DNA from: Alphaproteobacteria bacterium
Lineage (GTDB): Bacteria; Pseudomonadota; Alphaproteobacteria; JAEULC01
Assembly (NCBI GenBank): GCA_020851015.1
Contig: JADZDN010000413.1
Span: 1-27,402, forward strand
Reading direction: 5' to 3'
Length of the DNA stretch: 27,402 bases
Positions 12,779 to 27,402 of this stretch are shown here, one piece after another. Numbering within the stretch: the stretch's first letter is position 1; each line of letters starts with the position of its first letter. The notes beneath the pieces are model-generated. The model saw only the letters and a list, made by a program, of their open reading frames with translations. It ran no database searches and was not told the DNA's origin. A program made the translations under genes and the position numbers.

Positions 12779-12806
12779 CCCCCGACCCATCGACAAGGAT
12801 TGTCCC

Positions 12807-13934
12807 ATGCGTCGTCTTGCACGAATTTTCGCACTGCTGTGCCTTGCGCTCCATCCGGCGCTCGCGTCCGGCCAGACTCCGGCGCCAGGATCGCCGCAGG
12901 CCGTCGAGGCGGCCAAGGATCGCGCCAATCGCGGTGCCGTTGGCGTGGTCTCGGGCGGTGTCGACGGTACCTATGTCCGCATCGCGGCCGACCTGGCGGC
13001 TGTGCTCGACGGGCCGGACCTGCGCGTATTGCCGGTGCTGGGCAAGGGTTCGCTGCAGAACCTCAACGATCTCGTTTACCTCCGCGGTGTCGATATCGCG
13101 ATCGTGCAGTCCGACGCGCTCGCCTATGCGCGACGCGAGAAGCTGCTGCCGTCCGACCGCTCGATCGCCTACATCGCCAAGCTCTACAACGAGGAATTCC
13201 ACCTTCTCGCGTCTACCGAGATCAAGGACATCGCCGAGCTGGCCGGCAAGCCCGTCAACCTCGACACGCGCGGCAGCGGCAGCTACCTGACCGGCACGCT
13301 GCTGTTCAACCTGCTGAAGATCCCGGTCGAACCGGTCTACAACGACCAGCAGCTCGCGCTCGAAAAGCTCCGCCGGGGCGAGATCGCCGCGATGGTCTAC
13401 GTCGCCGGCAAGCCGACACGGCTATTCCGCGAATTGAAGCCGGAGGACGGCGTCCACTTCCTGCCGGTGCCGCTGGCGGCCGAGCTGATCGAAACCTACC
13501 TGCCGTCGCGGCTGTCGCGCGAGGACTACCCCCAGCTGATCGCCGAGGGCGCGGAGATCGACACGGTGGCCGTCGGCGCGGTGATGGCCGTCTACAACTG
13601 GGCCGCGGATACCGAGCGCTATCGCCGGGTGAAGCGCTTCGTCGATGCCTTCTTCTCGGACTTCGGCAAATTCCTCGATGCGCCGAGGCATGCGAAATGG
13701 AAAGAGGTGAACCTGGCGGCGCAGGTACCGGGCTGGCAGCGCGTGAACGCCGCGGACCAGTGGCTCGCGGCCGCCGCCAGCCGGGGCGGCCCGGAAGAGC
13801 AGTTGCGCGCGAATTTCCGTGCGTTCATGGAACAGCAGGCCAAAGCGGGCGGCATCACGCAATCGAGCCGCCAGCAGCAGGACGAGCTGTTCGAGCAGTT
13901 CGTCCGCTGGCAGTCGCAGCGGGCTCGACGCTAG
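12807..13934 (+). CDS. TAXI-family TRAP-type solute-binding protein (no permease nearby)
   Basis: Periplasmic solute-binding protein of the TAXI (TRAP-associated extracytoplasmic immunogenic) family, 375 aa. The ATG at 12807 has AAGGA eight bases upstream. A signal peptide comes first (RRLARIFALLCLALHPALAS). Family hallmarks follow: a GVVSGGVDGTYVRIAADLA motif, LPVLGKGSLQNLNDL, DIAIVQSDAL, the hinge region NLDTRGSGSYLTG and MVYVAGKP. TAXI proteins normally work with a fused 4TM-12TM TRAP permease for carboxylic acids; none is in this window, and the upstream partner is the Sel1-like exported protein. The C-terminal 60 residues or so (after VNLAAQVPGW) form an unusually long, Gln-rich tail. 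It may serve a distant permease or act as a sensor. Confidence 0.8.
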   Translation: MRRLARIFALLCLALHPALASGQTPAPGSPQAVEAAKDRANRGAVGVVSGGVDGTYVRIAADLAAVLDGPDLRVLPVLGKGSLQNLNDLVYLRGVDIAIVQSDALAYARREKLLPSDRSIAYIAKLYNEEFHLLASTEIKDIAELAGKPVNLDTRGSGSYLTGTLLFNLLKIPVEPVYNDQQLALEKLRRGEIAAMVYVAGKPTRLFRELKPEDGVHFLPVPLAAELIETYLPSRLSREDYPQLIAEGAEIDTVAVGAVMAVYNWAADTERYRRVKRFVDAFFSDFGKFLDAPRHAKWKEVNLAAQVPGWQRVNAADQWLAAAASRGGPEEQLRANFRAFMEQQAKAGGITQSSRQQQDELFEQFVRWQSQRARR

Positions 13935-14005
13935 CCAAGCGTCCCCGCGTACGCCTAGCCGCGCTGCTGCGCCGCGAGGCGGCGGCCCGCCGCGTTCGCC
14001 ACCCG

Positions 14006-15790
14006 CTATCGGGGACTGCGGCGCCTCTGCGTTCGCAATGCCTTGGTCGCGGCCAGGTCCACGGCCGGCGGCGCGCCGTCGATCACGACGCCATAGCTTT
14101 CGCGTGCGTGGGCCGCGGTGATCTTGCCCTCGGCGACATCAGCCAGGACCGCGTCGGGATCGCGCTCCAGCGGATCCCCGAAACCGCCGCCGCCGGCCAT
14201 CCGCACGGCGAACACGTCGCCCTTGTTGACGCGGGTCAGGAACTTGGCCGGCAGGTGGTCGATTTTGCCGTCGGCGCGGCGGATCGACACGTCGGAAGCG
14301 GCGCCCTGCCCGCCGCCCGCCAGCCCGTAGGTGCGATGGTCGCGCCGGTCGGACCTGATCTGCAGCACGGCATCGTCAGCCTTGAACCGCAGATGCCGCT
14401 CGATTGCCAGCCCGCCGCGGAAACGGCCCGGGCCACCGGTATCGGGCACGAAAGCATAGCGCTCGACCGCCAGCGGCTGGTCGGCCTCGATCATCTCGGC
14501 CGGCGTGTTGGAATAGTTGACCAGCGTGCCGGTGCAGGCATCCATGCCGTCGCGATCGGGGCCGCCGCCCCAGGACGACAGCAGGAATTCCAGATAGACG
14601 AAGGACTTGCCCTGCGCATCCGTGCCGCCGAACGACACGCCCACCTCCGGCAGATTCGATCCGCAGGCCGGAATGAGGTGCGGCACGGCCTGCGCCAGCG
14701 CGCCGAACACCGTGTCGGCGATGCGGATGCCGGTGATGCCGCGCGCCGCCACCGCGGCCGGCGGGCGCGGATTGACGATCGGGCCTTCCGGCGCGATCAC
14801 CTTGATTGGCCGGAAATACCCGGCATTGTTGGGGATCGACAGGTCGACGATCGACCGCACGCAGGCCAGCGCCGTCGACAGGGTGAAGGGATAGACGCAG
14901 TTGATCGCGCCGCGGACCTGCGGCGACGTGCCGGTGAAGTCGATCGTCAGGTCGTCGGCGCCGATCGTCACGGTGGCAACGAACGGGATCGGCCGCGGGT
15001 CGATGCCGTCCCCATCCAGATGGTCGACGAAACGCCATGTGCCCTTCGGCAGCTTGGCGATCTCGGCGCGGGTGAAGCGCTCGGTGTAGTCGAGTAGGTC
15101 GATGCAATACTGCCGGAGCGGCCCGGAGCCATAGCGGTCGGCGAGCTTGATCATCTCGCGCTCGCCCACCATGCAGGCCGCGATCAGCGAGCGTATGTCG
15201 CCGATCACCTTGTCCGGCACGCGCACGTTGCGCTCGATGATGCGGAACAAATTCTCGTCCGGCACGCCCTGGTGCCACAGGCGCGAGGGCGGGATGCGCA
15301 AGCCTTCCTGGTAGACCTCGGTGGAATCGCTGGCGTTCCCGCCGGGGATTCGCCCGCCGATATCGGTCATATGCGCGAGCGCCGAGGAAAATCCCAGCAG
15401 CGCGCCTTGATGGTAGATCGGCCGGACCAGCACGACGTCGGGCAGATGCGTGCTGCCGTCATAGGGATCATTGGTCACGAACAGGTCGCCCGGCCGGATC
15501 CGCCCGCCGAAGGTATTCAGCACCGACCGCACCGCGAACGGCATGGCGCCGAGATGGAACGGCAGGCAGGTGCCCTGGGCGATCAACTCGCCGTCGGCCA
15601 GGAACAGCGCGGTCGAGAAGTCGAGCGCCTCCTTGACGACGAAGCTGCGGGCGGTGCGCGAGACGGTCAGCGCCATCTCGTCGGCGAGCGTGACCAGCGC
15701 GTTCTTGATGAGCTCGAGCGCGAAGGGATCGCGGGTCTGCAGCATCTCCCTGCGCAATACAGCCTCGCCCGATGCTTGTGCCTGCACCAT
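14006..15790 (-). CDS. hyuB: N-methylhydantoinase B / HyuB-family subunit
   Basis: The 594-aa subunit of ATP-dependent hydantoinase/oxoprolinase/acetone-carboxylase-type enzymes. HyuB carries the hydrolysing site and pairs with the ATP-using HyuA. The diagnostic stretch FVTNDPYDGSTHLPDVVLV and the following ALAHMTDIGGRIPGG supply the conserved Asp/His metal-site residues. PRPPAAVAARG and the Gly-rich end (TYGLAGGGQGAA, MAGGGGFGDPLERDP) are also typical, and length matches the family. The ATG at 15788-15790 lies 4 bases after the hyuA stop, with TAGGGG as ribosome site; an overlapping TTG at 15808 is less likely. Last gene of the five-gene minus-strand operon. The family covers hydantoin, 5-oxoproline, N-methylhydantoin and ketone carboxylation, so the substrate cannot be read from sequence. 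Confidence 0.9.
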   Translation of the reverse strand: MVQAQASGEAVLRREMLQTRDPFALELIKNALVTLADEMALTVSRTARSFVVKEALDFSTALFLADGELIAQGTCLPFHLGAMPFAVRSVLNTFGGRIRPGDLFVTNDPYDGSTHLPDVVLVRPIYHQGALLGFSSALAHMTDIGGRIPGGNASDSTEVYQEGLRIPPSRLWHQGVPDENLFRIIERNVRVPDKVIGDIRSLIAACMVGEREMIKLADRYGSGPLRQYCIDLLDYTERFTRAEIAKLPKGTWRFVDHLDGDGIDPRPIPFVATVTIGADDLTIDFTGTSPQVRGAINCVYPFTLSTALACVRSIVDLSIPNNAGYFRPIKVIAPEGPIVNPRPPAAVAARGITGIRIADTVFGALAQAVPHLIPACGSNLPEVGVSFGGTDAQGKSFVYLEFLLSSWGGGPDRDGMDACTGTLVNYSNTPAEMIEADQPLAVERYAFVPDTGGPGRFRGGLAIERHLRFKADDAVLQIRSDRRDHRTYGLAGGGQGAASDVSIRRADGKIDHLPAKFLTRVNKGDVFAVRMAGGGGFGDPLERDPDAVLADVAEGKITAAHARESYGVVIDGAPPAVDLAATKALRTQRRRSPR

Positions 15791-15794
15791 GCCC

Positions 15795-17864
15795 CTACCC
15801 CAGCTCAATCTCGATCGTGTCCCAGGCGATGCGGCGCGCGCGGCCCCCGGGCGGGATCACGGTGGTGCTGTCGAATTCCTCCACAAGCAACGGCCCCTGA
15901 CGCCACGCCTCGCCGAGGTCGCCGCGCGCGTAGATCGGTGTCTTCACCCAGCCGATCTCCGGCCCGAAATAGACCTGCCGCGCCCCCATGCCCGCACGCG
16001 CTTCCGCGCCCAGCGTCAGGCGTTCCGGAACATGCGACTCGGTCGCGACCCCGCGGGCGATGACCCGCAGGTTCATGATCTCCACCGCCTCCTCGTCGGA
16101 GCGATAGCCATATTGGCTTTCATGCGCCGCACCGAAGCGTTCGCGCAGCGATCTTGCGTCATTGCCGCCATACGCGACAGTCAGCTCCGAGTTCGCGCCG
16201 ACATAGCGCAGGTCCGCCTGCCGTTCGAACCGGCGCATTGCCGGTGCGAAGCCCTCTTCCGCGAGCGCCTCGCCACCCTCCTGCTCCATGGCGCGATAGG
16301 TCTGCTCCAGCGCCGTGCTGTCCAGCCCGGCGAGGCCGCGCTTGAAGGTGCGGACGTAGTGGCGCTCGACCGCCGGGAACAGCATGCCCAGCGCGCTGAA
16401 CAGGCCCGGCACCGGCGGCACCAGGATGCGCCCGATCTCCAGCAGCCGCGCCAGGGTGGCGGCGTGGACCGGCCCATTGCCGCCGAAGGCGAGGATCGCG
16501 AAGTCGCGCGGGTCGCGACCGCGTTCGGTCGACACGGCCCGCAGCGCCCGCGCCATGGCCGCGTTGGCGACGCGATGCACGCCCCAGGCCGCTTCCTCCA
16601 GCGACAAGCCCATCGGCGTCGCGACGGCCTGTTCCAGCGCCTTGACCGCCAACTCGCGCCGCAGCGGCAGGCCGCCGCCCGCCAGCGCCACCGGATTGAT
16701 GAAGCCCAGCACCACGTTGGCGTCGGTGACCGTCGGCTGCGTGCCGCCCTGGTCGTAGCAGGCCGGGCCGGGCATGGCGCCGGCGCTTTCGGGCCCGACC
16801 TTAAGGCCACCGCCGGCGTCGATCCGCACCAGGCTGCCGCCGCCCGCGCCGACCTCGGCGATATCGATCGCCGGCGCCCGCACGTGGTAGCCGCCGCCGC
16901 TCAACAGCCGCCCCGAAATGTTGATGCCGCCGCCAACCTCCAGCGATCCGACCCGCAGGTATTGGCCCTGGTCGACCAGCGCCGCCTTGGCGGTGGTCCC
17001 GCCCATGTCGAAGCTGAGCAGGCTGAGGTCGCCCAGGCGTCGCGCCAGTTCGGCCGCACCCACCACGCCCGCCGCCGGGCCGGATTCGATGATGTGGATC
17101 GGCCGTTCCGCGGCCGCCGCCGCGCCCATCGCACCGCCGCTCGACTGCATGATCGTCAGCGGCCGGGCGATCTTGCGCCTGCGCAGTTGCGCCTCGAGCC
17201 GGCCGAGATAGTGGCGGACGACGGGAAGCACATAGGCATTGACCACCGTCGTGCTGGTCCGCTCGTACTCCCGTATCTCCGGCAGCAGCTCGCTGGACAG
17301 GGTGACGGGAATCGCGGCGTCGCGCGCCCGGACCAGCTCGCGCACCAGGCGCTCATGGGCGCCATTGGCATAGGCGTTGAGCAGGCAGACGGCGATGGCG
17401 TCGACCTTCTCGGCAAGAACCCGCTCGACGACCTGGCGGGCGCCAGCCTCGTCCAGTGCCCGCTCGACCTGGCCCTCGTGATCGATCCGCTCCGCCACTT
17501 CGAAGCGAAGCCGGCGCGGAACCAGCGTCTTGGGCTTGCGCCAGCGTATGTCGTAGAGCACGGGCATGCGCAGCCGGCGGATTTCCAGCACGTCCCGGAA
17601 TCCTTCGGTCGTGATCAGCGCGACCCGCGCGCCCTTGCCCTCGAGGATCGCGTTGGTGGCGACGGTCGTACCGTGCATGATCTGCGCCACATCGGCGATC
17701 CGCAGCGAGCCGCCGGCCAGGGTCGATTCGATGCCGGTCGCGATGCCCAGGCTGTAGTCCTCGGGTGTCGACAACACCTTGGCGCGCTCCACCCGGCCGT
17801 CCGGGGTCAGGAACACCAGGTCGGTAAAGGTGCCGCCGATATCGATGCCGATGCGCGTTGCCAT
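15795..17864 (-). CDS. hyuA: N-methylhydantoinase A / HyuA-family ATPase subunit
   Basis: The 689-aa ASKHA-fold ATP-binding subunit of a hydantoinase/5-oxoprolinase-type complex. It activates the cyclic amide by phosphorylation for ring opening with HyuB. Visible motifs are the N-terminal phosphate loop GIDIGGTFTDLVF (5-17), HGTTVATNAILEGKG (about 64-78), SSGGAMG and ESGPAAGVVGA, the second phosphate loop SFDMGGTTAKAALV, and FGGNGPVHAATLARLL in the C-terminal half. Full length for a stand-alone HyuA. The ATG at 17862-17864 is 9 bases after the amidohydrolase stop, and hyuB begins 4 bases after its own stop, so translation is probably coupled. The operon carries no separate hydantoin racemase or carbamoylase. 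Confidence 0.92.
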   Translation of the reverse strand: MATRIGIDIGGTFTDLVFLTPDGRVERAKVLSTPEDYSLGIATGIESTLAGGSLRIADVAQIMHGTTVATNAILEGKGARVALITTEGFRDVLEIRRLRMPVLYDIRWRKPKTLVPRRLRFEVAERIDHEGQVERALDEAGARQVVERVLAEKVDAIAVCLLNAYANGAHERLVRELVRARDAAIPVTLSSELLPEIREYERTSTTVVNAYVLPVVRHYLGRLEAQLRRRKIARPLTIMQSSGGAMGAAAAAERPIHIIESGPAAGVVGAAELARRLGDLSLLSFDMGGTTAKAALVDQGQYLRVGSLEVGGGINISGRLLSGGGYHVRAPAIDIAEVGAGGGSLVRIDAGGGLKVGPESAGAMPGPACYDQGGTQPTVTDANVVLGFINPVALAGGGLPLRRELAVKALEQAVATPMGLSLEEAAWGVHRVANAAMARALRAVSTERGRDPRDFAILAFGGNGPVHAATLARLLEIGRILVPPVPGLFSALGMLFPAVERHYVRTFKRGLAGLDSTALEQTYRAMEQEGGEALAEEGFAPAMRRFERQADLRYVGANSELTVAYGGNDARSLRERFGAAHESQYGYRSDEEAVEIMNLRVIARGVATESHVPERLTLGAEARAGMGARQVYFGPEIGWVKTPIYARGDLGEAWRQGPLLVEEFDSTTVIPPGGRARRIAWDTIEIELG

Positions 17865-17873
17865 GCGTGCCGC

Positions 17874-18965
17874 CTAGCGCCCGATGCCGACGAGATCGGC
17901 GGCATTTTCGCCCAGGATCTTGTCCTTTTCGGCGGCAGTTAGGAACGTGCAATGCTTGCGCACGTAGTCCACGCATTGCCGATAGGTGCAGAAGCGCTCG
18001 ACGTTCGGCATGTCCGAGCCCCACAGCAGCTTGCCCGCGCCAAAGGTGTCGCGCATCTCGCGGATCAAGGCCTGGGCCTCGGGATAGGGGTAGTCCCAGA
18101 CCCCGCCCCAGGCGATCGGGAACATCACCTCGAGCTGCAGGTTGTCGCGCTTGTAGACCGCCATCGCCTCCTCGGGGAATTCCCAGGTTCCCCGCGGCGC
18201 GAAATGCCCGACCGATGGGCCCATGACGAACAGGAAGCGCGTCTGGGGCAGGCGCTCAAGGACAGCATCGAGAGCCTTCAGATTGCCGATGTAGCTCGCG
18301 CGGTCGTAGTTCGGTGTCGAGGACAGTTCCAGGAAGACGGGCAGCTTGTAGCCGGCGATCTTGTCCCAGAACGGACCGAAGTCCCTGTGGTCGACGTTGC
18401 GCGCGTAGCCGTGCCGCGACATGTCGTGCGCATAGTAGAGGCCCTTCAGCCCCAGCCTCGTCACCGCGCGGTCGACCTCGCCAAGCTGTTCCGGCTTGTC
18501 GGCCATCGCCTCGTCGACATGCAGCAAGCCGGTGAAACGACCGTCATGCTCGGACTGGGCGAAGGAATTGTAGTCGTTCATCGCGCCATAGCCGCCGCCG
18601 GCCTGCAGGATGCAGTGGTCGACCCTGGCCTCGATCATCTGGGCGATCATGAACTCGGGCGAGCAAACGATCTCCTGCATGCCCACGGGCATGTACTGCA
18701 CGTAGTAGTCCTCGCCCTCCCAGGTGAAGGCGAGCTGGCCGTTGTGCCCCACGCGGAAGCCGACCTCCGTCAGCCCCGCCCAGGTATTGTCGCCAGGGCG
18801 GAACAGCATGGTCGGCGTGATCTCCTTGCCGTCCCGCGCGCGATAGGCGCGGGCCGAGGGCCGCGTCACCACCTTCTGCAGGTATTTCAGGTGGACCGCG
18901 TTCGACGGATGGCCGCAGGCGCCTTGCCAGTACTGGAAGACGTGGGCGTGGCAATCGATGATCAT
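17874..18965 (-). CDS. Amidohydrolase-2 family TIM-barrel protein with altered active site
   Basis: A 363-aa member of the amidohydrolase-related family (PF04909 type), which includes ACMSD, resorcylate decarboxylases and lactonases. The metal-site HxH is at His6 and His8 (MIIDCHAHVF), and the late Asp ligand is Asp318 (LLWGSDMPNVERF). The strand that normally carries the next metal-ligand His reads KLPVFLELSSTP, with Glu213 in that area, and the strand normally ending in the catalytic His reads FLFVMGPSVGHF. These histidines therefore look replaced, though His254 lies nearby and this is a by-eye alignment. No signal peptide, so cytoplasmic. It sits 9 bases upstream of hyuA, suggesting action on the same substrate, before or after ring opening. 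Substrate unknown. Confidence 0.75.
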   Translation of the reverse strand: MIIDCHAHVFQYWQGACGHPSNAVHLKYLQKVVTRPSARAYRARDGKEITPTMLFRPGDNTWAGLTEVGFRVGHNGQLAFTWEGEDYYVQYMPVGMQEIVCSPEFMIAQMIEARVDHCILQAGGGYGAMNDYNSFAQSEHDGRFTGLLHVDEAMADKPEQLGEVDRAVTRLGLKGLYYAHDMSRHGYARNVDHRDFGPFWDKIAGYKLPVFLELSSTPNYDRASYIGNLKALDAVLERLPQTRFLFVMGPSVGHFAPRGTWEFPEEAMAVYKRDNLQLEVMFPIAWGGVWDYPYPEAQALIREMRDTFGAGKLLWGSDMPNVERFCTYRQCVDYVRKHCTFLTAAEKDKILGENAADLVGIGR

Positions 18966-19035
18966 GGCGCTCGCAGGCGTTCAGGTCGGGACAGCGGGGC
19001 AAGCCTGGCCTGCCCCGCCGTGGGACTGCAGGGAC

Positions 19036-19908
19036 CTAGGCGGCGCCCAGCTTTTCCATGTGAAGCTTGAACAGGCGGTCCATCTCGCCGTTGACCACCA
19101 CGAAGGCACCCCAGAAATCGAGGAACGCCTTCCATTCCGCGTCGCCGTAGCGCACGGCCCAGGTGTTCGGCCGCTTGTCGATCGGCTTGTCCGGCTCGAT
19201 GACCACGGCCCAGCTCGCGTTGCGCTTGGCAAACAGCAGCACGTCGCTGTCGCCGCTCATCCACACATCGGCCTTCTTGGCGCGCACCGGCTCGGCGCCC
19301 AGCGCCACCTGGCCGGCCGTGGTGATCAGCTTCGCCTTCGGCCAGATGATCGGGATGCGCGGCTCCTCGCTGCCGCCGGCGACAACCGAGAAGGTCACGT
19401 CGGGATTGTTGAAATCCTCGGAGGTCTTGTACTTGCCGACGTTGTCCTTGTGGATCATCAGCAGGCTGCCCTTGGAATAGAGCGGCCCGACATAATTCAC
19501 CGTCAATGCCCGTGGGATGGTGTAGGTGAGCGACGAGCCGTACAGGTCGTAGTCGCCCTTGCGCAGCCCGACGGTCGCGTTGGCGAAGGTAACCTCCTTG
19601 TAGTCGACCTTGATCTCCAGCTCCTTGGCCAGGCGGTCGACGACATCCTTGTAGATGCCGCCGAGCTCGCCGGTCTTGGCGTCCTTGTAGAACCAGGGGC
19701 CGGTTTGCGAATAGCCGACCCGGATCACCCCTTCCTTGCGGATCTTCGCCAGGGTGGAATCGTCGCGCACCCCCGTCTCCAGGACCTGCGCCAGGAGTTC
19801 GCGCGGCGCCATCGCCGCGCCCGCTGCCGCGAACACGCTGGAGGCCGCGCCGAGCGTCGCGGCGCCCTTCAGGAAATCGCGCTTGCTGTTGTTGACCGCA
19901 TCAGTCAT
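19036..19908 (-). CDS. Polar-amino-acid-type ABC transporter substrate-binding protein
   Basis: A 290-aa periplasmic binding protein of solute-binding family 3. The ATG at 19906-19908 has GGGGAG six bases upstream. The N-terminus shows a Tat-like signal in its Lys-Arg form (SKRDFLKGAATLGAASS), so export may be of the folded protein. After residue 50 come family features: GVIRVGYSQTGPWFYKDAKT, GGIYKDVVDRLAKEL, a mid-protein GLRKGDYDLYGSSLTYT and RYGDAEWKAFLDFW near the end. It lies in the aldolase/hydantoinase operon, while the matching ATPase and permeases are transcribed divergently from 21183, so the transporter is split between two units. Expected ligands are amino acids or related small zwitterions. 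Confidence 0.85.
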   Translation of the reverse strand: MTDAVNNSKRDFLKGAATLGAASSVFAAAGAAMAPRELLAQVLETGVRDDSTLAKIRKEGVIRVGYSQTGPWFYKDAKTGELGGIYKDVVDRLAKELEIKVDYKEVTFANATVGLRKGDYDLYGSSLTYTIPRALTVNYVGPLYSKGSLLMIHKDNVGKYKTSEDFNNPDVTFSVVAGGSEEPRIPIIWPKAKLITTAGQVALGAEPVRAKKADVWMSGDSDVLLFAKRNASWAVVIEPDKPIDKRPNTWAVRYGDAEWKAFLDFWGAFVVVNGEMDRLFKLHMEKLGAA

Positions 19909-19947
19909 GTCGTACTCCCCTTTCGCTGGTTTCCCGCTCGAACCGCA

Positions 19948-21069
19948 TCACGTACTGGCGCCGCGCGCCGCGATCGGCCACAGAGCCTCGACGCGGCCGT
20001 GGCGCACGCCGACATACCAGTCGTGAAGATTGACCGTCGGGTCGCAATGGCCCGGGATCAGCATCACCTTGTCGCCCAGTTTCAGCTTCTTCGCCTTGGG
20101 TCCCAGCTTCAGCTTGCCGTGCTCGTCGGAAATGCCGACCTGCTCGACATCCTCCAGCCCATGCACCCAGGGCGCGCCCTTCTCGGCGCTGTAGGACTTG
20201 AGCCCCGCATCGACGATCGCGCGGTCGGCGGCCGGCACGCTCATCACCGTGGCCAGCACGAACAAGCTGTGCTCGAAATCCGTGTAGCGGTTCGACGTCT
20301 TGCCGCCGATCCGCGCGTAGTCCGTGTCCATGAAAACGTAAGAGCCCGCCTGCAATTCGTTCCACAGGCCGCTCGTGCCCTCGAACTCGTAGGTGCCGGT
20401 GCCGGCGCCCGTGACCAGTTCGCAGGCGATTCCCGCCTGTTTCAAGGCCTCGACGGTCTGGCGCACGGCCTCGGCGGCCCGCTGGATCGCCTGCTGCCGC
20501 TCGGCATAGGTCGCGAGATGCTGGGCGGTGCCGTAATAGGCCTGGAGCCCGCGGAACTTCAACCCGCCCGTCGCGCCGATCAGCTTCGCCAGGTCGCGCG
20601 CCGGCGCGCCCGGCAGCACGCCGCAGCGCTGCATCCCGACCTCGATCTCCACCAGCGCGCCCAGCGTGACGCCGAAGTCGCGCGCGACCGCGCCGGTCGC
20701 CTCGACCTGCTCGGCCGAATCAAAGCAGACGGAGACGCTCGCATCCTTGGCAAGTGCGGCGAGCCGTCGCAGCTTGTGGGTGCCGACGATCTGGTTGCTG
20801 ACCAGGACGTCCTTGACCCCGCCGCGCACCAGCGCCTCGGCCTCGCCGACCTTCTGGCAGCACTGCCCGACCGCGCCCAGCGCGATCTGCTTCAGCGCGA
20901 TGGCCGGGCATTTATGAGTCTTGGCGTGCGGGCGCAGGCGCACGCCCGACTTGCGCGCGAAGTCGGCGAGCTTCGCAAGATTGTGCTCGAAAGCGTCGAG
21001 ATCGACGACCAGCGCGGGCGTATCGATTTCGTCGATGGAGGCGCCGATGCGGGCGGGCGGCGATGTCAT
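19948..21069 (-). CDS. DSD1-family PLP enzyme, D-threonine / 3-hydroxy-D-aspartate aldolase-like
   Basis: A 373-aa fold-type III PLP enzyme (alanine-racemase N-terminal barrel plus D-serine-dehydratase-like C-terminal domain). Lys50 in RPHAKTHKC is the expected Schiff-base lysine. His341 and Asp343 in PGHCDPTVNLHDWYVGVR are the metal-binding pair of D-threonine aldolase. The segments GAVGQCCQKVGEAEAL, FRGLQAYYGTAQH and NELQAGSYVFMDTDY resemble 3-hydroxy-D-aspartate aldolase. Members cleave beta-hydroxy-D-amino acids to glycine plus an aldehyde or glyoxylate, or dehydrate D-serine. First gene of the minus-strand operon, 113 bp from the divergent ABC ATPase gene and 39 bp before the binding-protein gene. 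Exact substrate is not certain. Confidence 0.82.
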   Translation of the reverse strand: MTSPPARIGASIDEIDTPALVVDLDAFEHNLAKLADFARKSGVRLRPHAKTHKCPAIALKQIALGAVGQCCQKVGEAEALVRGGVKDVLVSNQIVGTHKLRRLAALAKDASVSVCFDSAEQVEATGAVARDFGVTLGALVEIEVGMQRCGVLPGAPARDLAKLIGATGGLKFRGLQAYYGTAQHLATYAERQQAIQRAAEAVRQTVEALKQAGIACELVTGAGTGTYEFEGTSGLWNELQAGSYVFMDTDYARIGGKTSNRYTDFEHSLFVLATVMSVPAADRAIVDAGLKSYSAEKGAPWVHGLEDVEQVGISDEHGKLKLGPKAKKLKLGDKVMLIPGHCDPTVNLHDWYVGVRHGRVEALWPIAARGAST

Positions 21070-21182
21070 CGTGTGTTGCCAATCGGTCGGCGGTTGGACA
21101 TCATGAAAGCGCTGCCAAGTTCATCACGCCGACCGTACCCGCGCAAGGGTCGCCGCGGCGACCGGGGCAAGGGGGCCCGCGG
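21070..21182. promoter_or_regulatory. Divergent promoter region shared by aldolase/hyu operon and ABC operon
   Basis: These 113 bp separate the two start codons and must carry both promoters, so the two units are probably controlled together. TCATGAA at 21101-21107 and TTCATCA at 21120-21126 form an imperfect inverted repeat (6 of 7 pairs, 12-base spacer) that could be an operator. TTGGAC at 21094-21099 resembles a -35 element for the plus strand, but no good -10 follows. AAGGGGG upstream of 21183 is the ribosome site. No regulator gene is present nearby. Confidence 0.4.
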
Positions 21183-21941
21183 ATGGACGCGACACCCGCG
21201 ATACGTGTAGTCGACCTCCGCAAGAGCTTCGGCACGCTGGAAGTGCTGCGCGGCGTGTCGTTCGACGTCCATCGCGGCAACGTCGTCAGCATGATCGGCG
21301 CCAGCGGCTCGGGCAAGAGCACCCTGCTGCGCTGCATCAACCGGCTGGAGACGCCGAGCGCGGGCGAGGTCTACATCGACGGCGCGCCGATGGGCGCGGT
21401 CGACGGCCGGGACCGTCCGCTGTCGGAAATCAACAAGATGCGCCGCGACCTGGGCATGGTCTTCCAGCAGTTCAACCTTTGGCCGCACATGACCGTGCTG
21501 GGTAACGTGATCGAGGCGCCGATCCGCGTGCTGGGCATGAATCGCAAGGCGGCCGCGGCGCTGGGCGAGGAATGCCTGGCGCGCGTCTATCTTTCCGAGA
21601 AGGCGCGCGAATATCCCGCCCGCCTGTCCGGCGGCCAGCAGCAGCGCGTCGCGATCGCCCGCGCGCTGGCGATGCGGCCGAAGGCGATGCTGTTCGACGA
21701 GCCGACCTCCTCGCTCGACCCCGAGCTGACCGACGAGGTGCTGGCGGTGATGCGCGAACTGGCGAAGTCCGGCACGACCATGATCGTGGTGACCCACGAG
21801 ATGGGCTTCGCGCGCGACGTCTCGCACCGCGTCCTGTTCCTGCATAACGGGCAGATCGAGGAGGAAGGGTCGCCGGCCCAGGTGTTCGGCAGCCCCAAGT
21901 CGGAACGCTGCCGCCAGTTCCTGTCGAAGCATCTGCAATAG
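21183..21941 (+). CDS. Polar-amino-acid ABC transporter ATP-binding protein
   Basis: The 252-aa ATPase of the HisP/GlnQ class that powers amino-acid uptake. Walker A is GASGSGKST (39-47), the Q-loop is in VFQQFNLWPHMTV, the signature is LSGGQQQRVAIARALA and Walker B is MLFDEPTSSLDP, followed by the H-loop in VVTHEMGFA. The length is standard. The ATG at 21183 has AAGGGGG about eight bases upstream. First gene of a plus-strand operon with two permeases; the binding protein is in the divergent operon. Confidence 0.92.
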   Translation: MDATPAIRVVDLRKSFGTLEVLRGVSFDVHRGNVVSMIGASGSGKSTLLRCINRLETPSAGEVYIDGAPMGAVDGRDRPLSEINKMRRDLGMVFQQFNLWPHMTVLGNVIEAPIRVLGMNRKAAAALGEECLARVYLSEKAREYPARLSGGQQQRVAIARALAMRPKAMLFDEPTSSLDPELTDEVLAVMRELAKSGTTMIVVTHEMGFARDVSHRVLFLHNGQIEEEGSPAQVFGSPKSERCRQFLSKHLQ

Positions 21942-21959
21942 GGGCCGAGGTTGTCCGAC

Positions 21960-22652
21960 ATGCTGATCGAAGCCCTCGATCCGACGATGTTCTGGGAATA
22001 CCGGCTGGTCCTGCTGCGGGGCCTGGCCTTCAACGCCTATGTGTTCCTGGCCGCCGCGGCGGTTGCCCTGTCGGTCGGGCTGGTTGCGGCCCTGCTGCGG
22101 ATCAACCGCGCCTGGCCTTTCCGCTGGATCGGCACGCTGCATGTCGAGGTGTTCCGCAACGCGCCGGACTACATCATGGTGGTCTGGGTGCATTTCGTGC
22201 TGCCGCTGCTGCTGGGCGCGGCGATCGGGCGGCGGATCGAGTTCAATCCCTTCGTGTCGGCGGTGATCGCGCTGGGCTTCGTCTACAGCGGCTATTTTGC
22301 CGAGACGTTCCGCGCGGGCATCCAGTCGATTCCGCTCGGCCATGTCGAGGCCGGGCGCGCCTGCGGCATGGGCGAGTTCCTGATCCTGCGCCGCGTCATC
22401 CTGCCCCAGGTTGTGCGCCGCATGCTGCCCGAGGCGATCAACCAGTTCGTGTCGCTGTTCAAGGCGACGACCATCGTCTCGCTGATTGCCGTGCCGGACC
22501 TGATGTACCAGGTTTCGATGGTGATCCAGCAGGAGATGAAGCCGCTGCCCCTCTATACCAGCGCGGCTGTAACCTATTTCGCAGTGATCTATGTCGTCGC
22601 GGGCCTGGTGCGCGTGTTGTCGGAGCGCTGGCGCAACCGGATCTACGCCTGA
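21960..22652 (+). CDS. Polar-amino-acid ABC transporter permease (first)
   Basis: A 230-aa inner-membrane permease of the HisM/GlnP class with about five hydrophobic helices. The coupling (EAA) loop reads EAGRACGMGEFLILRRVILPQ, which contacts the ATPase; the preceding YSGYFAETFRAGIQSIPLGH is also typical. The ATG at 21960 is chosen with GAGG about nine bases upstream; an in-frame TTG at 21951 lies directly on that site. It starts 18 bases after the ATPase stop. Its stop overlaps the start of the second permease by one base, indicating coupled translation of a heterodimeric permease. Confidence 0.9.
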   Translation: MLIEALDPTMFWEYRLVLLRGLAFNAYVFLAAAAVALSVGLVAALLRINRAWPFRWIGTLHVEVFRNAPDYIMVVWVHFVLPLLLGAAIGRRIEFNPFVSAVIALGFVYSGYFAETFRAGIQSIPLGHVEAGRACGMGEFLILRRVILPQVVRRMLPEAINQFVSLFKATTIVSLIAVPDLMYQVSMVIQQEMKPLPLYTSAAVTYFAVIYVVAGLVRVLSERWRNRIYA

Positions 22653-23323
22653 TGAGCAACTGGGAGCGCCTGGTCTGGAATCAGCGCGGAGTCCTGCTGC
22701 AGGGGCTTGTCGTCACCGTCGAGGTCTGCCTGATCGCCTTCGTGCTGGCCGTACTGGGCGGCCTCGCCCTCTGCCTGGTGCGGATGTATGTGCGGCCGCT
22801 GAAGCCTCTGGCGGTCCTGCTGACCGAGTTTTTCCGCGCCACTCCGATCTTCGTTCAGCTGATGTGGGTCACCTACGTGTGGCCCGAAATCTTCGGCTGG
22901 CCGAACAGCTTCTTCACCGCGGGATGGGTCGCGCTGGGGCTGCAATCCAGCGGCTACCTGGCCGAAACCTTCCGCGCCGGCATCGAGGCGGTGCCCCGCG
23001 GCCATCGCGAGGCAGGCTACTCCGTCGGCATGTCGCCGATCCTGGTCTTCGGCCGCATCGTACTGCCTCAAAGCCTGCTGACGGTCGCCCCCTCGATCGT
23101 CAACCAGTTCACGGTGATCGTGAAATCCTCGACCCTGGTCTCGGTGATCACGGTGCAGGACCTGATGTTCCAGGCGCTGAAGCTGGTCAATGTATGGTAC
23201 GAGCCGATCGAGATCCTGACCGCGACGGCGGGCATCTATATCGGCTTCATCTTCCTGGTCTCGACCGCCGGCAAGATGCTCGCCGACATGTTGCGCCGTC
23301 GCTTCGGCCTGGCGGCGGCGTAG
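22652..23323 (+). CDS. Polar-amino-acid ABC transporter permease (second)
   Basis: The 223-aa partner permease. The ATG at 22652 shares its A with the TGA of the previous gene. Hydrophobic helices and the family pattern FFRATPIFVQLMWVTYVWP are present, and the coupling loop reads HREAGYSVGMSPILVFGRIVLPQ. Together with the previous gene it forms the membrane channel for the amino-acid-type ABC importer. Its stop lies 22 bp from the stop of the converging flavoenzyme gene, with no clear terminator hairpin between them. Confidence 0.9.
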   Translation: MSNWERLVWNQRGVLLQGLVVTVEVCLIAFVLAVLGGLALCLVRMYVRPLKPLAVLLTEFFRATPIFVQLMWVTYVWPEIFGWPNSFFTAGWVALGLQSSGYLAETFRAGIEAVPRGHREAGYSVGMSPILVFGRIVLPQSLLTVAPSIVNQFTVIVKSSTLVSVITVQDLMFQALKLVNVWYEPIEILTATAGIYIGFIFLVSTAGKMLADMLRRRFGLAAA

Positions 23324-23345
23324 GCATTGACGCGGCTCACGGCGC

Positions 23346-24590
23346 TCAGAATCGATCCGCGCGATATGGCGCGAGGTCGATGGTCGTCGGCTTGCCCGCG
23401 GCCAGTTCGCCGATCAACCGGCCGCAGATCGCCCCCAGCGTCAGGCCGAAATGGCCGAAGGCGAAATAGACGTTCGGATGGCGCGGCGAGCGGCCGAGGA
23501 TCGGCAGGGAATCGGGCGTCGACGGGCGCTCGCCCATCCAGCGCGACGCACCCTGGGGGTTGATGCCAGGAACGAGGATTCGCGCGTGATGGAGTACCTT
23601 TTCGGTCAGCTCCATGCGCGGCTTCGCCTTGGTGCCGGCGAATTCGCCGATGCCGCTAACGCGCAGCCCCCCTTCCATCGGCGTGATGGTGATGAAGCGG
23701 TCATAGGACATGACCGTCCGATTGAATTCCACGCCGGGGTTCGGCATCGACAGGTGATACCCGCGCTCGGATTCCATCGACACCTCGGTGCCGAGCGCGG
23801 CCGCCAGTTCGCGCGACCAGATCCCCGCCGCGATCACCACGCGATCGACCGCGATGCTGCCCTGCGCCGTCACCACCCGCGTGGGCCCGTTCGCTCCGAC
23901 CTCGAACCCGCGCACGGCGTCGCGCCGAAGGATGCCGTTGCGGCGCACGAAGTCCTCGACGATCGTCGTCGTCAGGCGATGCGGCGAGACCGTCCAGCCG
24001 TAGTCCGGCCAGAATACCGCCTTTGCGACGCTGGGTCCCAGCGCGGGTTCCATCTCGCGCGCGGCGTTGCCGTCCAGCACCTCGCGCCGCACGCCATAGC
24101 GGTCCTGCAGCGCGTACTTGAACTGGTCGCCGGCGAACGCTTCTTCGCTTTCGTAGGTGTAGAGCTTGCCGTTGCGGCGGATCAGGTCCGCCATCTTGGC
24201 CGGGCCGAGCAGCATTTCGTAGGATTCGAAGACGCGCGAGAGGATCGCATGCAGGGCCGGCACGATCTGCTCGACCCGGCTGCGCCGGCTGTTGCGGACG
24301 AAGCGCCAGAAATACGGAAGCGCCGAAGGGAAATGCCGCCAACCGACGTGCAGCGGGTGCAGCGGGTTGGTCAGCATGCGCGGCACGCGCCAGGGGAGAC
24401 CCGGCAGGGCGTTGGGCGCCACGCCTCCCACCGAGAAGTTGCCCGCGTTTCCGAACGAACACCCCAGGCCCGGCTCGTCGCGGTCGATCAGCGTGACGGA
24501 AAAGCCCTCGCGCTGCAGGAAAGCGGCGCAGGAGGCGCCGACGATCCCCGCGCCGATGACCAGGAAGTCGGTGGATGCCGCCTCGGCCAT
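23346..24590 (-). CDS. FAD-dependent oxidoreductase, D-amino-acid dehydrogenase-like
   Basis: A 414-aa DAO/DadA-family flavoenzyme. Glycine-rich FAD motif: FLVIGAGIVGASCAAFLQRE (9-28), followed by the acidic ribose-binding end VTLIDRDEPG; then CSFGNAGNFSVGG, typical of DadA-like members. The C-terminal part shows GASRWMGERPSTPDSLPILG and FGHFGLTLG, the second FAD-contact region of the family. DadA oxidises D-amino acids to 2-oxo acids and passes electrons to the respiratory chain. The ATG at 24588-24590 is 8 bases after the dctM stop, so it is co-transcribed with the TRAP genes, suggesting the transporter delivers its substrate. Other DAO-family substrates (sarcosine, hydroxyproline, opines) remain possible. 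Confidence 0.8.
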   Translation of the reverse strand: MAEAASTDFLVIGAGIVGASCAAFLQREGFSVTLIDRDEPGLGCSFGNAGNFSVGGVAPNALPGLPWRVPRMLTNPLHPLHVGWRHFPSALPYFWRFVRNSRRSRVEQIVPALHAILSRVFESYEMLLGPAKMADLIRRNGKLYTYESEEAFAGDQFKYALQDRYGVRREVLDGNAAREMEPALGPSVAKAVFWPDYGWTVSPHRLTTTIVEDFVRRNGILRRDAVRGFEVGANGPTRVVTAQGSIAVDRVVIAAGIWSRELAAALGTEVSMESERGYHLSMPNPGVEFNRTVMSYDRFITITPMEGGLRVSGIGEFAGTKAKPRMELTEKVLHHARILVPGINPQGASRWMGERPSTPDSLPILGRSPRHPNVYFAFGHFGLTLGAICGRLIGELAAGKPTTIDLAPYRADRF

Positions 24591-24598
24591 CGGCCGAC

Positions 24599-25891
24599 CT
24601 ACTTTGCCGCCAGCCCGAACACCAGGTTCGGCAGCCAGGTAGACAGTTCGGGTACCGCCGTGATGACCAGCAGGCTCAGCAGCAAGGGGACGCAGAAGGG
24701 CACGACGGCCTTCAGCACCTCTTCGACCGGGATGTTCGCTACGCGCGACGCGACGTACAGGCCGATGCCCATCGGCGGCGTGATGATGCCGATGATCAGG
24801 TTGAAGCAGATGATGATACCGAAATGAACCTGGTCGATGCCCAGCGACTTGATCACGGGCATCAGCACGCTGGAAGCGATGATCAAGGCCGGCAACGAGT
24901 CGATCAGCATGCCGACGATCAGCAGAAATCCGTTGATGGCAAGCAGCGCGAGGAACGGATCCTTCGTCAATCCACCCACGTATTCCGTCAGATGATGGGC
25001 GATGCGTTCCTGCACGATGATGTCGCCCAGCACCGTCGAAACCGCGATCAGGTACATGATGATCGCGGTCGTCCCGAGAGTTGATGCCACGCACGCGTAG
25101 AGGTGACGCCACGTCAACTGGCGATTGGCGACGCCAAGAAACAACGAATAGAGCGTCGCGAACACGCCTACCTCGGTCGGCGTCGCGGTTCCGGTCAGCA
25201 GCAGGCCCACGATCACGACCGGGGTCAACAGCTCGAGCTTCGCCCGCCACGCGGTGCGAAACAGCTCGCGCCACGAGAAGCGTTCGGTCGGTCCGAATTC
25301 TTGCGGCCGCCAGTAGGAGTAGAAGTAAACCGCGATCATCAGGAAGACGCCGATCAGGATCCCGGGAATGACGCCGCCCAGGAACAGGCGTCCGATCGAC
25401 ACCTCGGTCATCAGCCCGTAGACGACCAGCACGATGCTGGGCGGAATGATCGGGCCGACCGTGCACGACGCCAGCGATACGGCGGCCGCCATCCGCACCG
25501 AATAGCCGTGCTCGCGCATCGCCTTGATCTCGATCACGCCGAGCGCTGCCAGATCGGCGACGGCCGCACCCGACATGCCGGCGAACACCATGCTGCCGAA
25601 GACGTTCACCTGCGCCAGCCCGCCCCGCAGGTGGCCGGTGGCGGCGCGGGCGAAGTCGAAGATCCGGTCGGTCACGCCGGTCACGTTCATCAGATTGCCG
25701 GCAAGGATGAAAAACGGGACCGCCAGCAGGATGAAATTGTCGACGCTGCCCACCATGGTCCGGCTGACCACGTCAAGCGGCGCGCCGATCCACAACACGC
25801 CCGCGAGCGCCCCGAGCCCGACCGCGATCTCGACCGGGACGCGCACGACCAGCAAGACGACGAAGATGCCGAGCATCAGGAAGGCGACCAT
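24599..25891 (-). CDS. dctM: TRAP transporter large permease DctM
   Basis: A 430-aa integral membrane subunit of a tripartite ATP-independent periplasmic transporter, driven by a sodium or proton gradient. It is hydrophobic throughout, with family segments such as AVPFFILAGNLMN, FAGMSGAAVADLAALG, SLASCTVGPIIPPSIVLVVY and NLIIGIITPPMGIGLYVAS. The ATG at 25889-25891 has AGGAGG nine bases upstream. It begins 12 bases after the dctQ stop and ends 8 bases before the flavoenzyme start. Standard length. Confidence 0.95.
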   Translation of the reverse strand: MVAFLMLGIFVVLLVVRVPVEIAVGLGALAGVLWIGAPLDVVSRTMVGSVDNFILLAVPFFILAGNLMNVTGVTDRIFDFARAATGHLRGGLAQVNVFGSMVFAGMSGAAVADLAALGVIEIKAMREHGYSVRMAAAVSLASCTVGPIIPPSIVLVVYGLMTEVSIGRLFLGGVIPGILIGVFLMIAVYFYSYWRPQEFGPTERFSWRELFRTAWRAKLELLTPVVIVGLLLTGTATPTEVGVFATLYSLFLGVANRQLTWRHLYACVASTLGTTAIIMYLIAVSTVLGDIIVQERIAHHLTEYVGGLTKDPFLALLAINGFLLIVGMLIDSLPALIIASSVLMPVIKSLGIDQVHFGIIICFNLIIGIITPPMGIGLYVASRVANIPVEEVLKAVVPFCVPLLLSLLVITAVPELSTWLPNLVFGLAAK

Positions 25892-25903
25892 CCCGCGCGC
25901 CTC

Positions 25904-26455
25904 CTAGCCCACGGTGGCGAAGCGGCGGTCGGGCGGAACCAGGGCGTACCGCTCTTCGATCTCCGACAAGGGCGCGTCCGGCGGCAAGTCGCGCGCCGCG
26001 ACCAGCGCCGCGACGGCGAAATAGGCCGAGGTCAGGCCCATGGAGATCGAGCCGACGATCAGCGGCAGCGTCCAGTAGAACCGCGGCACGCCGATCACGA
26101 ACGAGGGGAAATCGAGTTCCTGGTGCGCGATGCCGACGGCGGCGACCACCACGACGACGCAGAACACGATCACCAGGAACTGAGTGAACACGTAGAGCCA
26201 GATCCGCCAGCGCAGGCGCCAGCTGGCGATCAGGAATTCCATGATGATCATCTGGCGTGCCTGGTAGATGAAGCTGGTCCCCAGGAAATAGGCGTACATG
26301 ATCAGAAGCTCGGTCCACTCCTGTGCCCACCACAGCGAGTAGCTGAGTTGGCGCGCGAGCACCTGGGCCATGACCAGCAGCAGGATTATCCAGAAGGAAA
26401 GCATCGCGATCGCGAGTTCCGCGAGCCCGATGACCGTCAGTATCCTGCGCGACAT
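25904..26455 (-). CDS. dctQ: TRAP transporter small permease DctQ
   Basis: The four-helix small membrane subunit of the TRAP transporter (183 aa from ATG 26453-26455; a GTG at 26527 would give 207 aa, and neither start has a good ribosome site). Four hydrophobic helices are visible: LAIAMLSFWIILLLVMAQVL, MYAYFLGTSFIY, a central VFTQFLVIVFCVVVVVAAVG and WTLPLIVGSISMG. The WWAQEWTELLIMY segment matches the conserved DctQ core. It lies between dctP and dctM in the expected order. The C-terminal tail is charged and cytoplasmic. Confidence 0.88.
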   Translation of the reverse strand: MSRRILTVIGLAELAIAMLSFWIILLLVMAQVLARQLSYSLWWAQEWTELLIMYAYFLGTSFIYQARQMIIMEFLIASWRLRWRIWLYVFTQFLVIVFCVVVVVAAVGIAHQELDFPSFVIGVPRFYWTLPLIVGSISMGLTSAYFAVAALVAARDLPPDAPLSEIEERYALVPPDRRFATVG

Positions 26456-26596
26456 CTGGAGCAAGGCGTCAGCTCCCGAAACGCCGCGCCGCGCCGCGGG
26501 CGCGGCATGGCGGAGCGGCCCGGCCACCTAGCCGGGATGCTTCGCCGTTTCGGTCGGCAGGATAGGATATCGGGAGCCCCCGGGCGCCGGCGGGCG

Positions 26597-27402
26597 TCAG
26601 TATTTCAGCTGCGCGATGTAGTCGACCGTTTCCTTGGGAATCAGCCCGGCCTTGATGAACTCCTCGTGCGCCGGCTTGATCTTCTCGATCCACGGCTTCA
26701 GCGGCGTACGGATCAGCTTCACGTCGAACTGCTCCATCGCGATCTTCTCGTATTCCTGGAGCTGGCGCGTGCTTTCCTTCTTGTAGACCTCGCCGCCCTC
26801 CCAGATCGCCTGCTCGATCGCCTTCTTCTGCGCGTCGGTCAGCTTTTCCCATGACTTGCGGCTGAAGGACGGCGACACGACCTGGTAGTAGAGCTCGAGC
26901 GTCGTGTAGTACTTCGCCGCCTCCACGTGCTTGGATTGCACGGTCTGGGCGAGCGTCGTCTCCAGCCCGTCGACCGTACCGGTCATGAGCGCGGTATACA
27001 CATCGGGCCACGGGATCACCTGCACATTGGCGCCCAGCGCCATCAGCCCTTTGATCGGCATTTCCGCCTGGTATTGCCGGATCTTCTGCGGCTTCAGGTC
27101 ATCCGGTAGGAATACGGGCTTGCGCATCAATACGCCGCGCTGCTCCTGCTTGAACCAGTTCATGCGATCACTGTTCACGATCTTGATGCCCTTGTCGTAG
27201 ATGACGGCGGACATCTCCTGGAACAGCGGGCTCTTCAGGAAGGCGTCGAACTGCTCGAAGCTCTTGAAGCAATAAGGGCAGGCGATGATGTTCTGGCGCT
27301 TGTCCCAGTTGCCGAAATACGCCAGCAGCTCGACGAAGCCGTCGAGGTCGCCGCTGACCAGCGACTGCATGACGACCGGGATGTTCTTGCCGAGCTGGCC
27401 GT
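26597..27402 (-). CDS. dctP: TRAP transporter solute-binding protein DctP (N-terminus cut by right edge)
   Basis: The C-terminal 268 or so codons of a DctP-family periplasmic binding protein; the frame continues past the right edge, so the signal peptide is not seen. Family features: GIKIVNSDRMNWFKQEQRG, a KPVFLPDDLKPQKIR segment with the conserved arginine region, GANVQVIPWPDVYTALMTGT and VDGLETTLAQTVQSKHVEAA, then the helical C-terminus SWEKLTDAQKKAIEQAIWEG. It is upstream of dctQ, dctM and the flavoenzyme in one minus-strand unit. DctP proteins mostly bind carboxylates and related acids, including keto acids and amino-acid derivatives. Confidence 0.9.
   Translation of the reverse strand, partial: GQLGKNIPVVMQSLVSGDLDGFVELLAYFGNWDKRQNIIACPYCFKSFEQFDAFLKSPLFQEMSAVIYDKGIKIVNSDRMNWFKQEQRGVLMRKPVFLPDDLKPQKIRQYQAEMPIKGLMALGANVQVIPWPDVYTALMTGTVDGLETTLAQTVQSKHVEAAKYYTTLELYYQVVSPSFSRKSWEKLTDAQKKAIEQAIWEGGEVYKKESTRQLQEYEKIAMEQFDVKLIRTPLKPWIEKIKPAHEEFIKAGLIPKETVDYIAQLKY

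Follow-up and report, generated by a model that had tools for sequence, protein, structure and literature searches.

The question raised by this locus is whether an adjoining set of genes for a hydantoinase-type enzyme, an aldolase, an amidohydrolase, a D-amino-acid-dehydrogenase-like flavoenzyme and two import systems belongs together, and if so what kind of compound it serves. The genes lie between positions 14006 and 27402 of a 27,402-nucleotide stretch from an alphaproteobacterial assembly (contig JADZDN010000413.1), and this whole stretch is called the window here. An initial annotation, made from the DNA alone, had proposed that three adjoining transcription units form one catabolic island, and gene order and strands agree with that division: dta-sbp3-amh-hyuA-hyuB on the (−) strand, the ABC ATPase gene and two permease genes on the (+) strand, and dctP-dctQ-dctM-dadA on the (−) strand. 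Every named gene was recovered at its place and on its strand with clear family matches (e.g. Hydantoinase_B at 9.5e-173 and DctM at 1e-111). The answer reached here is that there is a real, uncharacterised, modular catabolic cluster, made of enzymes of known kinds, in which the combination and the amidohydrolase (AMH) are new as far as our literature search reaches; no paper appearing to describe such a cluster was found in the accessible part of the open-licence PMC literature, by which subscription papers are mostly not covered. The conserved part is the divergon formed by the first two units, which spans 14006–23323 and is made up as follows.

14006–15790, (−): hyuB, metal subunit of ATP-dependent lactamase/hydantoinase type; PF02538 (Hydantoinase_B); alternative starts at 15745 or 15808
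15795–17864, (−): hyuA, ATP-binding subunit; PF01968 (Hydantoinase_A) 7.3e-93, PF05378 1.3e-52
17874–18965, (−): amh, amidohydrolase-2 family with an altered metal-ligand set; PF04909 (Amidohydro_2) 1.7e-20
19036–19908, (−): sbp3, periplasmic binding protein of amino-acid type; N-terminal KRDFLK, which we take to be a Tat-like motif; PF00497 (SBP_bac_3) 1.7e-14
19948–21069, (−): dta, metal- and pyridoxal-phosphate-dependent aldolase of the D-threonine aldolase/BhcC group; Ala_racemase_N 1e-24, D-ser_dehydrat 9.9e-24
21070–21182: divergent intergenic region of 113 bp between dta and the ABC ATPase gene, with presumed promoters; the arrangement is kept in near relatives
21183–21941, (+): ABC importer ATPase; PF00005 (ABC_tran) 2.4e-35
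21951–22652, (+): ABC permease 1, start at 21951 or 21960; PF00528 (BPD_transp_1) 2.1e-19
22652–23323, (+): ABC permease 2; PF00528 (BPD_transp_1) 3.6e-19

Within the (−) arm the genes are closely packed, with gaps of 39 bp (dta/sbp3), 70 bp (sbp3/amh), 9 bp (amh/hyuA) and 4 bp (hyuA/hyuB).

Linkage of the divergent unit

Conserved linkage was the check that the initial annotation had itself proposed. An AMH alignment was used to scan genome contigs, which gave 126 matched stretches and 118 relatives, and the window proteins were mapped by tblastn on the best 80 loci of the 118 (designated L001 and so on) and tabulated with identity thresholds; tblastn rows were also taken where the gene caller was sparse or empty (L060, L061, L071) or had miscalled AMH (L056). 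In the 20 nearest loci (AMH identity at least 66%, ranging over 67–94%) the ABC ATPase and both permeases are present in 15, SBP3 in 16, HyuA in 14, HyuB in 12 and the aldolase in 11, while DadA and DctM are each present in one. These counts are lower bounds, because several contigs end inside the region (that of L015 leaves 301 bases on one side). Among the 50 loci at 50–66% AMH identity, SBP3 and both permeases were found in 10, an aldolase-fold gene in nine, HyuAB in two, DadA in one and DctM in two; the 10 loci below 50% hold one aldolase-fold gene and one HyuAB. Over all 80 loci there are 21 aldolase-fold genes, 17 HyuA and 15 HyuB, and an aldolase-fold gene is present in 20 of the 26 loci that have SBP3. 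The linkage of HyuAB, aldolase, AMH and ABC importer recurs in loci titled as alpha-, beta- and gammaproteobacteria and, without HyuAB, in metagenome-assembled genomes of NC10/Methylomirabilota.

Linkage of the first two units is beyond chance. In 13 genomes the aldolase family (PF14031) numbers 1–5 genes, HyuB 0–32 and AMH one (two in one genome), which corresponds to a chance level, per stretch of equal length, of 0.003–0.030 for the aldolase family and 0–0.25 for HyuB. Copy numbers alone were used from this comparison, and its P values were set aside, because the genomes had mostly been picked for having the cluster. HyuB-family genes are plentiful in some of them (32 in 7.2 Mb of the L006 genome, which also has 51 TRAP large permeases, and 25 in 2.1 Mb of the L060 genome), so that the presence of HyuB in L060 alone means little. 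In a less selected sample AMH occurs in 10 of 385 alphaproteobacterial genomes, at 12 places; leaving out two distant copies (37–38%) and counting a tandem pair once gives nine close loci, of which six have the ABC genes and SBP3, five HyuA and four the aldolase, although with eight of the nine already in the first scan this sample is no independent replicate. A tblastn search of 72,556 plasmid records (E 1e-20) did not find AMH. One locus, L188, carries two tandem AMH copies (77% and 80% identical to that of the window) from 8763 to about 11090, with no importer, aldolase or HyuAB match in the 19.9 kb fetched.

Active sites of the enzymes and the binding protein

The aldolase matches structures in the Protein Data Bank (PDB) with 7dib at 1.6e-106, 6qkb at 4.3e-106 and 4v15 at 7.9e-103. 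For the D-threonine aldolase AxDTA (4v15), the available text of PMC4401734 gives the active-site residues as K59, Q81, R157, Y187, H193, T233, Q249, S252, Y260, H347 and D349; reading the correspondence by motif rather than from structure, all 11 have counterparts in dta (K50, Q72, R148, Y178, H184, T224, Q240, S243, Y251, H341 and D343), and these are invariant in 19 rows. The match to AxDTA and to the D-3-hydroxyaspartate aldolase BhcC (6qkb) is full-length, with the active-site Lys, the His base and the His/Asp metal pair in common; dta differs in scoring 462 bits with the BhcC model, below the equivalog cut-off of 690, and in being set in an operon with an importer gene, AMH and HyuAB. 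The metal-ligand motif HCD occurs in 120 of the 120 aldolase relatives among the matches listed, and in 16 of the 21 aldolase-fold neighbours of AMH, the remainder having HAC (L034 and L059), HCC (L073) or YSD (L060 and L061); a His and Cys pair is the metal pair of D-serine dehydratase, according to the same source (PMC4401734, available text). With its site intact, dta may catalyse retro-aldol cleavage of β-hydroxy-D-amino acids.

The site of HyuAB is similarly complete. The patterns DxGGTxTD, DxGGT and GxxPGP (as DIGGTFTD, DMGGT and GAMPGP) are present in HyuA of the window and in 17 of 17 HyuA sequences from the loci, and HyuB has the metal tetrad D57, H115, D118 and H140, equivalent to that of CapB and unchanged in all 16 HyuB rows of the island. 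As far as the available text of PMC8453981 goes, such an Asp-His-Asp-His tetrad is needed in caprolactamase, and it also describes the phosphate and adenosine motifs of HyuA. The best PDB match of HyuA is N-methylhydantoinase (2.3e-130), followed by 6yra_A (2.7e-109), which was deposited as a 5-oxoprolinase and is probably CapA, judged by chain lengths of 696 and 581, and by acetophenone carboxylase (1.7e-83). Compared with N-methylhydantoinase (7hk5) and caprolactamase CapAB (PMC8453981, in the text available; probably 6yra), the window pair keeps the ATP motifs and metal tetrad but scores below the caprolactamase models (505.4 and 315.2 bits for CapA and CapB, against an NCBIfam equivalog cut-off of 1000). 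ATP-driven ring opening of a cyclic amide is the predicted activity.

A tree of 76 HyuB rows (16 from the island and 60 other HyuB from 12 of the genomes, characterised enzymes not being included) places all 16 island copies in one supported clade of 22, which is split in two: 12 rows, including the window, fall in an island-only clade, and those of L003, L019, L020 and L067 fall with non-island copies. The starred branches of this tree require at least three label changes. Since L003, L019 and L020 have close AMH and ABC genes (and L003 and L019 the aldolase too), HyuAB has been replaced there by a paralogue; L067, with AMH at 44%, has no aldolase. The position of HyuAB also varies, being downstream of AMH, behind permease 2 (L007, L009, L011) or on the opposite strand (L003, L060, L061). 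Around non-island HyuAB relatives no AMH or aldolase match was found in L141, L142 and L144, while L143 is the L060 island itself.

For the ABC ATPase the best equivalog models are HisP, TcyN, GlnQ and EhuA, all below their cut-offs. The ABC genes are of the same families and sizes as those of the EhuABCD and HisJQMP importers, from which they differ in these sub-cut-off scores and in having the binding-protein gene in the opposite, catabolic arm. In amino-acid binding proteins an Arg holds the carboxylate and an Asp the free amino group. All 26 rows of SBP3 that extend over the Arg keep it (R133). Where AncCDT-1 has its Asp, SBP3 has G219 (27 of 27 rows), with D220 after it (26 of 27), an arrangement compatible with either a blocked or a free amino group in the ligand. 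A LysR-type regulator adjoins the ABC arm in L059 (5469–6452), with members of the same protein cluster in L034 and L053; the divergon of the window has no adjoining regulator gene.

The PF04909 score of AMH is 74.4 bits (gathering cut-off 26.4), and although single-sequence search at 1e-3 gave no PDB match, the predicted model of the protein (mean predicted local distance difference test score, pLDDT, 77.1, falling below 50 at residues 7–25 and 319–326 among others) matches structures of ACMSD, PDC hydrolase and LigJ/LigW, the Foldseek match to human ACMSD having an E value of 9.7e-11 and template-modelling (TM) scores of 0.55/0.60. In characterised PF04909 enzymes His residues at strands β5 and β6 are metal ligands. 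AMH shares with the ACMSD/LigW/LigJ/PDC lactonase branch the barrel fold, the HxH of strand 1 and the Asp after strand 8, but differs in having no conserved His at strands 5 and 6, a Glu at strand 6 in close relatives, and an invariant E279. H6, H8, E279 and D318 are kept in all 30 rows of an alignment reaching down to 36% identity, in which H6 and H8 are the only invariant His (H25 is nearly so) and the strand-5 segment has no conserved His. The strand-6 His of the 5-carboxyvanillate decarboxylases 4inf and 4qs5 aligns with E213; a Glu stands at this place in 116 of 120 relatives among the matches listed (the pattern fails on four, and HxH on two), and the most distant of the 30 rows have other residues there, none of them His. 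The unusual active site that had been suspected in this protein is borne out by these alignments. Its chemistry may be a metal-dependent step, hydrolytic or decarboxylating, which is the assignment made here with least assurance.

A possible salvage pathway and its rivals

Our preferred reading, held tentatively and at somewhat less than even confidence, is that the conserved unit serves to salvage a β-hydroxy α-amino acid, most likely of the D series, that is N-blocked or cyclised. SBP3 would capture the compound by its carboxylate for uptake through the ABC importer, going by family; HyuAB would then open a stable cyclic amide (a lactam, hydantoin or similar) with ATP; AMH might carry out a further metal-dependent step, hydrolytic or decarboxylating, with a substrate that the AMH loci have in common, which is the weakest link; and the aldolase would cleave the freed β-hydroxy-D-amino acid to glycine and an aldehyde. 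Both the substrate class and the order of these steps are what we infer from the families and sites. If something of this kind is right, the conserved setting of this aldolase clade, whose site is intact and which comes with an importer of its own and an ATP-driven ring opener, may hint at the purpose of a little-understood kind of aldolase.

The initial annotation had spoken of a hydantoin-like substrate and had pointed to the absence of the usual partners. In the classical hydantoin pathway a carbamoylase and a racemase stand beside the hydantoinase. Neither was found among the 21 of 22 called window proteins that were scanned, nor was a dehydratase or an imine reductase, so that this claim holds for the window; beyond it, a gene of the Asp/Glu/hydantoin racemase family does lie downstream of AMH in the Stella-type loci L007 (Stella vacuolata ATCC 43931; by scan), L009 and L011 (by clustering). 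In L007 the region downstream of AMH (11633–16209) holds, besides this gene, an EamA transporter, two PhyH proteins and a TRAP system, with the same clusters in L009 and L011; one PhyH protein was compared with NCBIfam and matched a single model, ‘chlorinating enzyme’, at 101.4 of the 226.3 bits required. A hydantoin-like substrate is no more than possible, and against it other AMH loci carry a deacetylase or amidase in the place of HyuAB.

Further partners are exchanged in other AMH loci. In L005, L008, L010 and L012 one protein cluster lies just before AMH, separated from it by a single gene in L005 and L010, and the member in L005 is a DoeB/EutE-like deacetylase (284.9 bits, cut-off 402.7); an amidase follows in L034; DgaE/SelA-like pyridoxal-phosphate proteins lie near AMH in L014, L023, L063 and L076, each with a match to SelA (Pfam) or DgaE (NCBIfam); an MR_MLE protein cluster occurs in 13 loci, two members having been scanned; and L073 has an aldolase-fold gene beside AMH together with an importer of another type (Peripla_BP_6/BPD_transp_2). 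A 1282-amino-acid open reading frame in L016, considered as a fused replacement of HyuAB, was ruled out, as it matches FecR and TPR. These partners would seem to share a common logic, which suggests import of an N-blocked or cyclised β-hydroxy amino acid, its unblocking, and then cleavage or β-elimination. Ectoine or hydroxyectoine as the substrate is a lead only, suggested by the DoeB-like deacetylase, the PhyH genes and weak scores for EhuB and EhuC. A bolder extension, possible but rather doubtful, is that AMH marks, as signature enzyme, an undescribed family of loci for the catabolism of N-blocked β-hydroxy-D-amino acids, ranging from proteobacteria to Fermentithermobacillaceae. With its rearranged ligand set (HxH, E279, D318) it would catalyse the step shared by all of them, and the importer and the enzymes for unblocking and for breaking the Cα–Cβ bond would be exchangeable; if true, this would give a clade of D-threonine aldolases a physiological role.

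There are several observations that weigh against the salvage reading. Among the 20 nearest loci, L005, L008, L010 and L012 have a wholly different neighbourhood with none of the ABC, SBP3, HyuAB or aldolase genes; L016 and L018 have AMH and the ABC genes with neither aldolase nor HyuAB nearby; and L004 and L020 are without the aldolase in the stretch at hand. At the thresholds used, 40 of the 50 loci at 50–66% AMH identity are without SBP3 and 48 without HyuAB, and HyuAB is absent in the NC10/Methylomirabilota-type loci L021, L024, L064 and L078. The aldolase relatives of L060 and L061 have YSD rather than HxD, the TRAP importers near AMH fit no single importer, and the roles given to the MR_MLE, DgaE-like and DoeB-like proteins go by family name, with scores below curated cut-offs and one or two members of each cluster scanned.

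Some of these same facts suit a narrower explanation, unlikely in our view although it survives best of the rivals, in which the real unit is AMH and an importer only, the aldolase and HyuAB being accessory modules in their own right, with other compounds as substrates and a preferred site of insertion in common. It would account for L016 and L018, with AMH and the ABC genes alone, for the missing aldolase of L004 and L020, for the shifting location of HyuAB, and for L030 and L063, where 41 and 26 bp separate the end of a TRAP permease gene from AMH and there is neither aldolase nor HyuAB. It fits less well with the recurrence of an aldolase-fold gene next to AMH in loci with a different type of importer (L073) or with an HxC relative of the aldolase (L034 and L059), or with the occupation of the same neighbourhood by a HyuAB of a different clade in L003, L019 and L020.

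The converse proposal, that of a full island, would keep the third unit in the same pathway as well, with DadA oxidising the freed D-amino acid. This unit, which converges on the permeases across a 22-bp gap, consists of the following genes.

23346–24590, (−): dadA-like FAD oxidoreductase; PF01266 (DAO) 2.9e-60; adjoins the conserved unit but lies outside it
24599–25891, (−): dctM, TRAP large permease; PF06808 1e-111, TIGR00786 392.7 bits (cut-off 268.45); this copy lies outside the conserved unit
25904–26455, (−): dctQ, TRAP small permease; PF04290 1.2e-12; longer start possible at 26527
26597–27402, (−): dctP, TRAP binding protein; PF03480 1.7e-37; 267 amino acids, with the N-terminus cut by the window end and no start

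The DadA-like protein belongs to the DAO family and scores 170.4 bits with the D-amino acid dehydrogenase model PRK00711, below its cut-off of 383. The whole unit adjoins AMH in the window and, among the 80 loci, in L001 only, where its proteins are 93–98% identical to those of the window (DctQ 84%); at a threshold of at least 35% identity DadA is present in two loci (L001 and L056), DctM in three (L001, L030, L056), and DctQ and DctP in one. The breaks at the window end (27402) and at the start of the 46-kb contig of L001 fall within dctP at almost one and the same point, as though a common cause halted assembly there. Elsewhere, a DadA homologue is found in 79 of 289 alphaproteobacterial genomes, and 30 of its loci, fetched with flanks of at most about 1.5 kb on each side, which restricts the comparison, show no DctM, AMH or aldolase in any of them (there is a partial HyuA match in L170 and an amino-acid ABC system in L145).

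As regards TRAP systems in general, large permeases of any kind lie near AMH in 13 of the 80 loci (L001, L003, L005, L007–L012 with mixed kinds, L030, L056, L063, L067), and in nine of the 20 nearest, against an expectation of about 1.7 for the 321 kb fetched, given 527 copies in the 97.9 Mb of the 20 genomes concerned. Those nine, however, represent only four arrangements: that of L001; that of L003, where another TRAP pair (DctM 31% identical to that of the window) stands at the same place as in the window, converging on permease 2, without DadA; a TAXI/fused-permease type (L005, L008, L010, L012); and a DctP type about 5 kb off (L007, L009, L011). In L056 a relative of DadA (37%) stands next to AMH, and a DctM (36%) lies at a distance of 6.5 kb. 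Given this excess, TRAP systems may rank among the importers that are exchanged, although the DadA-TRAP unit of the window is itself not shared. Of the island as initially drawn, the linkage of HyuAB, aldolase, AMH and ABC importer stands, TRAP import as such may belong in a loose sense, and the inclusion of DadA is not supported. We regard the DadA-TRAP unit of the window as a neighbour that could at most have been added in one lineage, and the full island seems to us improbable.

More improbable still is that HyuAB is an ATP-dependent carboxylase of the acetone/acetophenone carboxylase type rather than a ring opener. The superfamily is the same, and HyuA scores 288.1 bits with the ApcC model; its CapA score is higher, N-methylhydantoinase and 6yra_A rank before acetophenone carboxylase among its PDB matches, and no third carboxylase subunit was found among the window proteins scanned. 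Least probable of all is a variant of the β-hydroxyaspartate cycle, in which the aldolase would join glycine and glyoxylate instead of cleaving: the BhcC score of dta and a BhcA-like aminotransferase beside AMH in L048 (348.4 bits, its cluster being in seven loci) point that way, but both scores are below the equivalog cut-offs (690 and 650 bits), none of the Pfam families that we take to stand for bhcA, bhcB and bhcD, and so neither the dehydratase nor the imine reductase of the cycle, was found when 21 of the 22 called window proteins were scanned, and we know of no place in that cycle for AMH, HyuAB or the importer. The genes bhcABCD themselves form a cluster, according to the available text of PMC11323563.

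Other features of the window

A search of 143,379 bases, made up of the window (with the 113-bp region between dta and the ABC ATPase gene) and six loci, gave no Rfam match at gathering scores. Beside hyuB lies a lone TRAP binding protein of NMT1_3/TAXI type (12840–13934, (+)), which among the 80 loci has a relative of at least 35% identity only in L001. At lower coordinates, 9155–11245 (−) encodes a caspase-fold peptidase (Peptidase_C14) that also has bacterial SH3 and FGE-sulfatase domains, and with which a relative in L001 clusters. The protein encoded at 4541–5263 (+) has no Pfam match and ends in a tail, VPEPASLGLLGMAMLGLGLIGQRRRKRV, which we take to be PEP-CTERM-like. Finally, 3–1367 (−) encodes a portion of a multi-HAMP protein and contains a 276-bp tandem repeat in about 3.1 copies.

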